From the IMG/VR virus record IMGVR_UViG_3300035698_009153, positions 1 through 24,169 of that record: DNA of 24,169 nucleotides. One strand, given 5' to 3'. This stretch comes from a virus. The position numbers and the translations under genes are program-made. The notes under the pieces are model-generated. The model was not told where the DNA came from, searched no databases, and worked only from the letters and a program-made list of their open reading frames with translations. This document shows, in pieces, positions 17,701-22,679 of the stretch; within the stretch, counting starts at the first letter, position 1, and each line of letters begins with the position of its first letter.

Positions 17701-18339
17701 TTAATAATCTCGCTCATGTCTCTTGTCTAAATCGTCTCTTAATTTTTGGAGTTTATCCCCAAGCTCTTTATTGTTATCTTTTATTTCATCAATTTCACCT
17801 TTGTCACCATACGTTTTTCTTGCCAATCTAGCAGCGCACCATTTTTTATGTGCGGCAATATTATTTATATGCGTTACGGTTGCAGCATCTAGTCTTTTAT
17901 TGCCATCTTTATCGAAAATTGGTTCAATATTATTATACATATCTTCGATATCTTCCATCGCAATTTTGGCTTGACTTTGCTTCGCAGTCACGTATTTATC
18001 GGAAAAAATAGGGTATTTATACATCCATAAGAATATTGTTGTATGGTTTGGCATGTCATCATATTTCTTACAAATAGTAACAAGGCTCACTGGGTGCGTA
18101 GCAATCCGCTGGCATATTAAGTCGCCCAACTCTTCGCTGTATATACTCGGCCTACCTGATTGTTTTTTATCTTCAGGCTTTGTTATTTTTTTTGCATACG
18201 ACTTTGGAATCGGTTTTTTTGGTTCGGCTTTTACTTTTAACTTTGATTCCGTTTTCGTTTTCGTTTTTGTTTTCACTGTTAGCTTTTTTGTTTTCGTTTT
18301 TGTTTTCACTGTTAGCTTTTTTGTTTTCGGTTCTGTCAT
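17701..18339 (-). CDS. terS: Terminase small subunit, Sf6 gp1-like (212 aa)
   Basis: The ATG at 18339 has a strong AAGGAAG site 9 nt upstream. Residues 62-112 form the DNA-binding helix-turn-helix domain (GRPSIYSEELGDLICQRIAT, then CKKYDDMPNHTTIFLWM), followed by helices and the conserved KTYGDK (175-180) and a C-terminal coiled coil (about 185-208). This order closely resembles Sf6 gp1 (140 aa). Terminase small subunits recognise the pac site and load TerL. The oddity is a 60-residue Lys/Thr-rich N-terminal extension (TKTKTKKLTVK repeats) created by a 33-bp DNA repeat; a basic tail could add nonspecific DNA binding. The first 167 nt overlap another small ORF in a different frame. Confidence 0.88.
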   Translation of the reverse strand: MTEPKTKKLTVKTKTKTKKLTVKTKTKTKTESKLKVKAEPKKPIPKSYAKKITKPEDKKQSGRPSIYSEELGDLICQRIATHPVSLVTICKKYDDMPNHTTIFLWMYKYPIFSDKYVTAKQSQAKIAMEDIEDMYNNIEPIFDKDGNKRLDAATVTHINNIAAHKKWCAARLARKTYGDKGEIDEIKDNNKELGDKLQKLRDDLDKRHERDY

Positions 18340-20775: not shown

Positions 20776-22065
20776 TTATGATTGTAACTCCGGTATGTGC
20801 GCTATATTTGGCGGTAAAATCATAAGCAAGAAATATTCAAATAATCTTCTTGGCTTTTCGTGAAACCTATCCTTTTCAGATTGAGAAGCACCCCTCTCTA
20901 ACCAGCGTGAATAGTAGCTTTCAAGGATGGATAACGTCGTCTCTTTGTCTCTACCCTTAGAATACCTCTCAATTTGCTCTGTAATAACGTCTAACGAGCT
21001 TTCATGAGACCCGAATGTCTTTATACCAATGACGCTTAAGATGTCTTGTAAGCTCCCTGTTGCGTTCTTACGGTATGCCCTATGTGAAGCATCTGAACCA
21101 TTAGGCTGCTCTTCTTTCGTGACAGGCTCACCTTCCCAATATTTAACATCAGCAATCCTAGCCATGAAAACAGCAACAGGTGATTTAATCGTTTTGCCGT
21201 GTTTAGAATCTAAGTGAGCAACGAAGTTCCCAATTGACCACTCAATATGTTCAAGGGTTGTTTTATTATTATCTTTGTAATGCAGGTTAATTAATTTCTC
21301 TGCCTGCCTGATTGTAAATACTTTGTCATTTAACTTATCTTTAATTAAATTCTGAACTGCCTTGGTTTCGTTTTTTTGGTTTAATTCTTCTTCAGAAAAA
21401 ACGCGCGTATGTAACGTTCTTTTCTGTAAAGGATCTGCAATAGGTACTGCAATAGGTATAGTGTTGGGATTTCTCCCATTACCATTTGGGATTTCTCCCA
21501 GTACCATTTGGGACTTCTCCCAATTCAGTGTTTGTGCGGTCTGCGGTGATTCTTCACCATGTCTGCCCTTTTGGGCGATAGCATTTGCCCTTTTGGGCGA
21601 TAGCATTTGCCCTTTTGGGCAATTCAGTGTTTGTGCGGTCTGCGGTGATTCTTCACCATGATTGTTAGTTGGGGTATCCGTAGGTATGGATTCCGTACCA
21701 TTGGGTTTTTCTGTTTTGTTTTCGTCTACTCCTAAACCAAGTAACTTGATAGATTTATCACTTAAGCTATACCATTTTGTTTTATCATAAGAGTGTTTAT
21801 TGTGATTACTTTCTAGTATTAGGGCGGCTTTTTTTAGAGAGTTTAAGCCTGTCCTTATTTGGTCGTAAGTTAGGTAGTTGTAATAATCGGCAAATTCCTG
21901 AACTGTGTTATACATCCAATACCTGTCGTTATGGAAGTTTTTCTTAGTTCTAAAATTATTATCTACCCAGTATAGAATACGGCTAAAAATTATAGCTCCT
22001 GCGAAATTCCTGCATTCTTGGTAGATAGCTACATTAAAACTATGATTAGTATTATTGTTTAACAT
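20776..22065 (-). CDS. O-like replication initiator, winged-helix protein with internal ori (429 aa)
   Basis: The ATG at 22065 has GGGAG 9 nt upstream and overlaps a leader-peptide stop (TAATG). Residues 20-105 form a winged-helix domain of the phage/plasmid initiator type (ILYWVDNNF, WMYNTVQEFADYYNYLTYDQ, then NSLKKAALI and DKTKWYSLSD). The linker, about residues 115-215, is low-complexity, and its DNA holds the iterons. Residues about 240-429 form a helical C-terminal domain for helicase-loader contact or dimerisation. As with lambda O, the protein likely binds repeats inside its own gene and loads the replicative helicase. It is followed by three unknown genes, presumably in one operon. 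Function is inferred from fold pattern and iterons. Confidence 0.85.
   Translation of the reverse strand: MLNNNTNHSFNVAIYQECRNFAGAIIFSRILYWVDNNFRTKKNFHNDRYWMYNTVQEFADYYNYLTYDQIRTGLNSLKKAALILESNHNKHSYDKTKWYSLSDKSIKLLGLGVDENKTEKPNGTESIPTDTPTNNHGEESPQTAQTLNCPKGQMLSPKRANAIAQKGRHGEESPQTAQTLNWEKSQMVLGEIPNGNGRNPNTIPIAVPIADPLQKRTLHTRVFSEEELNQKNETKAVQNLIKDKLNDKVFTIRQAEKLINLHYKDNNKTTLEHIEWSIGNFVAHLDSKHGKTIKSPVAVFMARIADVKYWEGEPVTKEEQPNGSDASHRAYRKNATGSLQDILSVIGIKTFGSHESSLDVITEQIERYSKGRDKETTLSILESYYSRWLERGASQSEKDRFHEKPRRLFEYFLLMILPPNIAHIPELQS
21465..21522. repeat. Iteron set A: three palindromic repeats, 22-bp period
   Basis: TGGGA-N4-TCCCA occurs at 21465-21478, 21487-21500 and 21509-21522, exactly 22 bp apart. 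The spacer contains ACCATT or similar. Because 22 is not a multiple of 3 the copies are read in different codon frames, so the conservation is at DNA level. Probable initiator-binding sites of the replication origin. Confidence 0.85.
21522..21660. repeat. 40-bp perfect direct repeats flanking iteron set B
   Basis: Positions 21522-21561 and 21621-21660 are identical over 40 bp, 99 bp (33 codons) apart, encoding HGEESPQTAQTLN twice. The set B iterons lie between them, so a whole cassette looks duplicated or inserted in the initiator linker. Confidence 0.9.
21565..21620. repeat. Iteron set B: three GCCCTTTTGGGC palindromes, 22-bp period
   Basis: GCCCTTTTGGGC at 21565-21576, 21587-21598 and 21609-21620, again 22 bp apart, separated by GATAGCATTT. 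They share the ATTTG-containing spacer style of set A but a different palindrome, suggesting two binding-site families in one origin. Confidence 0.85.
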
Positions 22066-22169
22066 TAATCAACACTCCCTGTGTCTTTATTGTTTGGATT
22101 GGTTTTAGATTGGTTTATTAAAGATAAGTGAAAATATAGCCAAGGGCTATGCATAAATGAAAAAAACAT
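22065..22169 (-). CDS. Leader peptide coupled to initiator (34 aa)
   Basis: From ATG 22169, with AAGGAA 9-10 nt upstream, to a TAA whose last base is the first base of the initiator ATG (TAATG). The peptide starts MFFSFMHSPWLYFHLS and ends NKDTGSVD. Its strong ribosome site and exact stop-start overlap argue that translation of the initiator is coupled to it, as tap is to repA in IncFII plasmids. The peptide itself may have no function. Confidence 0.6.
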   Translation of the reverse strand: MFFSFMHSPWLYFHLSLINQSKTNPNNKDTGSVD

Positions 22170-22189
22170 TTTATTTGTTCCTTTTTCAA

Positions 22190-22260
22190 GAACTAGTCGG
22201 CAATCCGTTAAATTAAAGATTGCAATTGTTAAATTTAGTTGCTATCCTTCCGACTAGTTC
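22190..22260. repeat. 11-bp inverted repeat in initiator 5' region
   Basis: GAACTAGTCGG (22190-22200) and CCGACTAGTTC (22250-22260) are perfect complements around a 49-nt A/T-rich loop. The inner end of one arm lies just upstream of the leader-peptide ribosome site. It may be an RNA stem in sense or antisense transcripts, or a protein-binding dyad. Confidence 0.7.
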
Positions 22261-22292
22261 CTTTGGTGTTTTTTGGAAAGATGACACCGCTT

Positions 22293-22409: not shown

Positions 22410-22679
22410 CTAGTAATTCTGCTTAGCGAATACTTGCCTACTTTTTGTAACCAGTCTTTTTATTACGTTCTGGTCTTCAAGTTTTCTTAAAGAACGATAG
22501 ATAGTTCTGATACTCATTTTTAGTACTGTTGCTATTTCTTCTACATCTTGAGCGCATCCGGTATAACTATCACCTTTAGCAATCACATATAAATACAGTC
22601 TGATATCTACAATTGATAACGCCTCATTGAGTAGTATCTCACCAGGTAGTACATAGTTCTTTGACTTATTTAGTAACAT
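22410..22679 (-). CDS. Small winged-helix DNA-binding protein (89 aa)
   Basis: The ATG at 22679 has GGGGAT 4 nt upstream. Residues 25-78 make a helix-turn-helix/winged helix (IRLYLYVIAKG, VEEIATVLKMSIRTIYRSLR, KLEDQNVIKRL), the pattern of small HTH_36-type domains found in phage and plasmid replication regulators. It is not long enough to be a complete initiator. Its position just upstream of the initiator leader suggests a regulator of the initiator operon or a CII-like/Cro-region activator. Confidence 0.75.
   Translation of the reverse strand: MLLNKSKNYVLPGEILLNEALSIVDIRLYLYVIAKGDSYTGCAQDVEEIATVLKMSIRTIYRSLRKLEDQNVIKRLVTKSRQVFAKQNY

Follow-up and report, generated by a model that had tools for sequence, protein, structure and literature searches.

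A probable lambda-type phage origin with iteron arrays of two predicted specificities inside its initiator gene

Replication origins that lie within the gene of their own initiator and carry type-specific iterons are known from phages lambda, P22 and L (PMC8022706). In lambda, the iterons sit inside gene O and are bound by the N-terminal half of the O protein (PMC4488673), while initiators of the RepA_N type combine an N-terminal winged helix with semi-palindromic direct-repeat iterons that have an A-rich centre (PMC7145576). The locus described here lies in a 24,169-bp stretch of DNA (the window), which is the entire IMG/VR virus record IMGVR_UViG_3300035698_009153 and encodes TerS, TerL, a P22-type portal, a major head protein and a head-closure gene. 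Like lambda ori/O, P22 gp18 and phage L gp18, it pairs an N-terminal DNA-binding domain with iterons of about 20 bp in the same gene and belongs to a set of type-specific initiator-iteron pairs (PMC4488673, PMC8022706). Unlike lambda O, the window protein has no Pfam match, and its palindromes have N4 spacers and a 22-bp period; unlike lambda ori, the window has a CTATACC box with 12-bp repeats and two specificities in one origin. The combination of winged helix and iterons also recalls the RepA_N initiators of plasmids and satellites (pSK41, pTZ2162, PLE RepA). The top Foldseek hits of the winged helix include 4pql as well as the initiator structures 4pt7 and 5kbj, but the match is weak (E at least 0.006, the best being E = 0.006 with TM about 0.55), and Pfam RepA_N (PF06970) does not match the protein.

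The initiator protein matches the phage initiator families phrog_11233 (E=1e-22), phrog_6493, phrog_428 and phrog_678, which cover its N-terminal 140 residues and leave the C-terminal half uncovered, and whose records describe neither iterons nor specificity. The N-terminal part also matches annotated phage replication initiators by tblastn, and the winged helix scores 122 bits against the HMM of alignment A1, the window itself being among the 17 model sequences. The Pfam search of the protein gave no match, and so none to a model of lambda O; a PDB sequence search gave none either, and no close relative of the full-length protein was confirmed in the viral contig collection. Additional features surround the gene. 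At 22185-22265, upstream of it, an 11-bp inverted repeat with perfectly matching arms (GAACTAGTCGG/CCGACTAGTTC) encloses an inner stem (-24.4 kcal/mol, z = -5.6 vs shuffles) and is possibly a leader hairpin; Rfam and tRNA scans gave no match, with this hairpin and the palindromes described below included for Rfam. The 11-bp repeat TTTAGATTGGT occurs twice just upstream of the initiator start (22093-22116), and directly upstream of the initiator gene a stand-alone 89-aa winged-helix protein (HTH_36; 22410-22679, minus strand) weakly matches the N-terminal families of phage initiators. Elsewhere in the window, a 33-bp tandem repeat (2.6 copies, 94%) is found at 18252-18336, near the start of the TerS gene.

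The original prediction described three palindromes of one kind (array A) and three of another (array B), both with a 22-bp period, in the linker-coding part of an O-like gene, and coordinates and shuffles bear this out (Table 1). In 60 shuffles of the window, no triple array of same-core palindromes at 22 bp arose, whereas the window has two. Both arrays share their period, the N4 spacer and the outer CAAAT bases, and the six sites are spread over all three codon frames. What the first description had missed is that A and B form the halves of a gapless 99-bp tandem duplication, so that the order in gene direction runs winged helix, flank, B, flank, A and box. Specifically, units 1 and 2 show no difference over their first 41 bp (0/41) and 30 differences over the 58 bp of the array part (p = 3e-9). 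Since the unit length of 99 bp is divisible by 3, the peptide encoded by the flank, HGEESPQTAQTLN, is itself repeated. Plain duplication followed by mutation would not spare the flank while altering three iterons together, which argues for recombination of forms that share a flank. The two arrays were therefore most likely joined by recombination between such forms, and the undiverged flank copies suggest that the duplication or recombination event was recent.

Table 1 Features of the initiator gene and the probable origin in the window
Feature	Position	Strand	Description
Initiator gene	20776..22065	minus	429 aa, O-like; N-terminal wHTH, origin-bearing linker, C-terminal part
Winged-helix DNA-binding domain, residues 8-111	21733..22044	minus	AlphaFold2 pLDDT 94; wHTH helices and wing
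Recognition helix, residues 67-79	21829..21867	minus	AlphaFold2 model; D68 at 21862-21864, R71 at 21853-21855
Degenerate D-type site	21685..21702	minus	TATGGATTCCGTACCATT on +; linker pattern scan; upstream of the duplicated units
99-bp unit 1	21562..21660	minus	Flank and array B; gapless alignment to unit 2
Flank copy 1	21621..21660	minus	40 bp, AATTCAGTGTTTGTGCGGTCTGCGGTGATTCTTCACCATG; 40/40 identical to copy 2
Array B	21565..21620	minus	3 x GCCCTTTTGGGC (21565-21576, 21587-21598, 21609-21620), 22-bp period; K68-type, predicted unbound by the window's initiator
99-bp unit 2	21463..21561	minus	Flank and array A; gapless alignment to unit 1
Flank copy 2	21522..21561	minus	40 bp, AATTCAGTGTTTGTGCGGTCTGCGGTGATTCTTCACCATG; 40/40 identical to copy 1
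Array A	21465..21522	minus	3 x TGGGA-N4-TCCCA, 22-bp period; TGGGATTTCTCCCA at 21465-21478 and 21487-21500, TGGGACTTCTCCCA at 21509-21522; D68-type, predicted cognate iterons
CTATACC box (GGTATAG on +)	21455..21461	minus	Canonical family +1 position after the last A iteron
12-bp direct repeat	21435..21458	minus	TACCTATTGCAG x2; fits the 12-bp periodicity that follows the box in the family; candidate unwinding element

A survey of 227 members in 136 clusters, the window included, places this arrangement in a wider family. When IMG/VR DNA was scanned blind to protein content, the pattern GCCCTTTTGGGC-N10-GCCCTTTTGGGC matched two contigs, and in each it lay within the linker of an O-like gene. 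Relaxed to GCCC-N4-GGGC-N10-GCCC-N4-GGGC, the pattern gave 102 stretches, of which 57 fall within initiators that share the N-terminal winged-helix domain. Further members were gathered by protein motifs alone, with iterons ignored; most of these have iterons at the same place, with a period of 21-23 bp and differing half-sites. The family layout comprises the winged helix, two to four palindromic iterons, a C[T/A]ATACC box at +1, one base past the final iteron, and then repeats with a 12-bp period. In the window, the winged helix is followed by N4 iterons within the 21-23 bp range of periods, with box and repeats attached to array A only. Most of the 136 clusters show a window-like layout, and in 109 clusters the iterons occupy the same position in the initiator gene, which strongly supports the proposal of a lambda-like origin, shaped by selection at the DNA level, inside an O-like initiator gene. 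The box is present in 87 of these 109 clusters, as compared to 5% of shuffled linkers, and lies exactly at +1 in 68; the self-match after it reaches 0.49 at lag 12 vs about 0.32 at other lags. The box occurs in all three reading frames, mostly in one, and the iterons occur in all three in similar numbers, which supports the earlier argument for selection on the DNA itself. One branch of the family (L225, L235, L258 and L271) apparently has a 23-bp period with an N3 spacer (e.g. GGGACAAAATGTCCC in L271) rather than 22 bp and N4. None of the other 226 members carries arrays of two specificities, in agreement with the view that two palindromes in one origin are unusual; a natural origin with full arrays of both types is unique in this survey and known from one contig. 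A candidate second case, L307, was rejected, as its two arrays share the TTTGGGA half-site and stand partly in back-to-back order. In the literature searched, which had few subscription papers, no description of the family's iterons, box or residue-to-base rule was found.

Across the 227 members, the half-site tracks the recognition helix. Specifically, Arg at residue 71 goes with G and Glu with C at base 4, while Lys at residue 68 goes with C and Asp with G at base 5. Such pairings are chemically ordinary: Arg can contact G, Lys the G that pairs with C, and Asp or Glu the amino group of cytosine. By mutual information over 78 clusters, with the register set by the outer T's alone, base 5 is best predicted by residue 68 (z = 18) and base 4 by residue 71 (z = 6.4). 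An iteron-blind scan for D68 returned 34 stretches, most of whose linkers carry TTTGG-type sites (e.g. TTTGGTAGAAATCCCAAA in L295). In the iteron-blind sets, all 39 K68/R71 members favor the K-type over the D-type site and all 24 D68/R71 members show the reverse; counted by cluster, 13/13 with Lys68 are of the B type and 21/21 with Asp68 of the A type (Fisher p = 1.1e-9, which exaggerates the strength of the contrast because the members are related). Other classes of residues 68 and 71 split both ways between K-type and D-type, and the K/D contrast is not phylogenetically clean. A poorly resolved tree of 91 columns without the helix residues implies about 13 K/D changes in its best form, of which strongly supported branches force only two, both obeying the rule.

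Applied to the window, whose initiator has D68 and R71, the rule predicts a TTTGG half-site, which is present in A and absent from B. Furthermore, array A ends one base before the CTATACC box, at the family's canonical position, while array B is followed by the second flank and no box. These two independent lines both point to A as the predicted cognate array of the window's initiator. The N-terminal domain is thus predicted to bind A and not B, which runs against the expectation that one domain would bind both repeat sets. The proposal that an A/T-rich stretch at 21280-21420 serves as the unwinding element fared less well, since its A/T content is only slightly above that of the gene (68% vs 62%). 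The box and the 12-bp repeats directly after A (21435-21461) make a better candidate. For most of the family's initiator genes, the C[T/A]ATACC box is followed by AT-rich repeats of 12-bp period (e.g. L002 4452-4500), which are a candidate common unwinding element.

The nearest phage in the survey, L002 (IMGVR_UViG_3300010399_000027), offers a view of where array B may belong. Its TerL and portal are 55% and 58% identical to those of the window, and the best TerL match among 50,697 phage records is about 33% identical. L002, which was found solely through its B iterons, has a K68 initiator and a single array, B, which shares the AAAA core and immediately precedes the CTATACC box. By its half-sites, B is a K68-type array, that is, of the type that belongs to this sister lineage. 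The supported clade of L002 also includes L296, which has D68 and the half-site TGTGGCG. In the comparison of L002 with the window, the flank peptides are similar (GQESIQTAPDLICPKGQM vs GEESPQTAQTLNCPKGQM), the flank DNA alone gives no significant match (score 18; shuffled 95% limit 19), and the C-terminal half of the initiator differs. The perfection of B, set against the divergence of the structural proteins, is more in keeping with a recent import or with active maintenance than with gradual decay since a common ancestor. The 89-aa protein encoded at 22410-22679 was considered as a binder of B and rejected, as its helix SIRTIYRSL has neither K68 nor R71 and BLASTP to the initiator gives E = 1.6.

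The available data are probably best explained by a lambda-type origin that has its own array A together with a recently acquired or duplicated array B of foreign specificity, predicted to be unused by the window's initiator. This reading builds on what is legible in the DNA, namely the two arrays, the tandem duplication, the correlation of residues 68 and 71 with the half-site across the family, and the position of the box. It is compatible with a model in which the origin of a P22-portal-type tailed phage lies within the initiator gene itself, in the part that codes for the linker, and works as lambda ori/O does. The N-terminal winged helix with D68 and R71 would bind the three palindromic A iterons as dimers and, by analogy with lambda, melt the adjoining 12-bp repeats; the C-terminal part of the initiator would recruit the replicative helicase, likewise by analogy. 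Array B would have come with, or been left by, the recent 99-bp duplication or recombination, and would represent a footprint rather than a working part.

In array B all three iterons are identical and perfect, although the compared structural proteins of the window and L002 share only 55-58% identity, and such perfection would also fit selection on B. It is conceivable, if rather unlikely, that B is a working second array, kept so that initiators of co-infecting K68 phages bind the window genome and either fire its origin or are titrated off the origins of their own phages. Lambda is known to be arrested by additional copies of an origin, which compete for O (PMC4488673), and titration of relatives' initiators by B in mixed infection is plausible but unproven. 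A recent arrival alone would account for the perfect iterons, however, as the flanks are equally undiverged; moreover, array A separates B from the box, which is about 100 bp away, and no K68 initiator was found within the 24-kb fragment. A single initiator might instead use both arrays, with A starting replication and B regulating it. RctB of V. cholerae is such an initiator, with two kinds of site, 12-mers and 39-mers (PMC5395669), and the common period, N4 spacer and outer CAAAT bases of A and B would suit it. The outer bases are common to the whole family, however, and none of the 24 D68/R71 members of the iteron-blind set favors the K-type site, which leaves shared use improbable.

It is also very unlikely that the contig was assembled as a chimera from two strains with a common flank and different arrays. 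The window is an IMG/VR fragment and the 40-bp flank repeat is a possible point of misjoining, but the reading frame is open across both units, the units align without gaps, and the junction of B to the flank (GGGCAGACATGGTG) requires a real molecule with that join. Finally, the palindromes might be RNA hairpins or operators rather than iterons, an idea prompted by TGGGA-N4-TCCCA pairs at 22 bp that also occur beside CI-like repressor genes. Exact A-type pairs were found in the viral contig collection only in L104 (2380), L105 (3728), L106 (5583) and L107 (2211), three of the four near such genes, and these are probably operators unrelated to the initiator family. Iterons at the same position in the initiator genes of 109 clusters, half-sites that track the recognition helix and the lack of an Rfam match make this idea hardly credible for the window.

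How initiator and origin change specificity jointly without a dead intermediate is an old question in lambdoid phages and plasmids. Here, one contig unites the array of its own initiator with a full array of the other specificity, as if a switch of the replication 'key' had been caught midway. A bolder and doubtful extension holds that the origin has two keys, with a full array for relatives' initiators through which the initiator of a co-infecting K68 phage is drawn to, or fires, the window genome, and that the family changes partners when residue 68 and the iteron core are exchanged via dual-array intermediates under the residue-to-base rule. That rule, which links residue 68 to base 5 and residue 71 to base 4, predicts which array is used, and it would make the origin compatibility of uncultured phages predictable from sequence.
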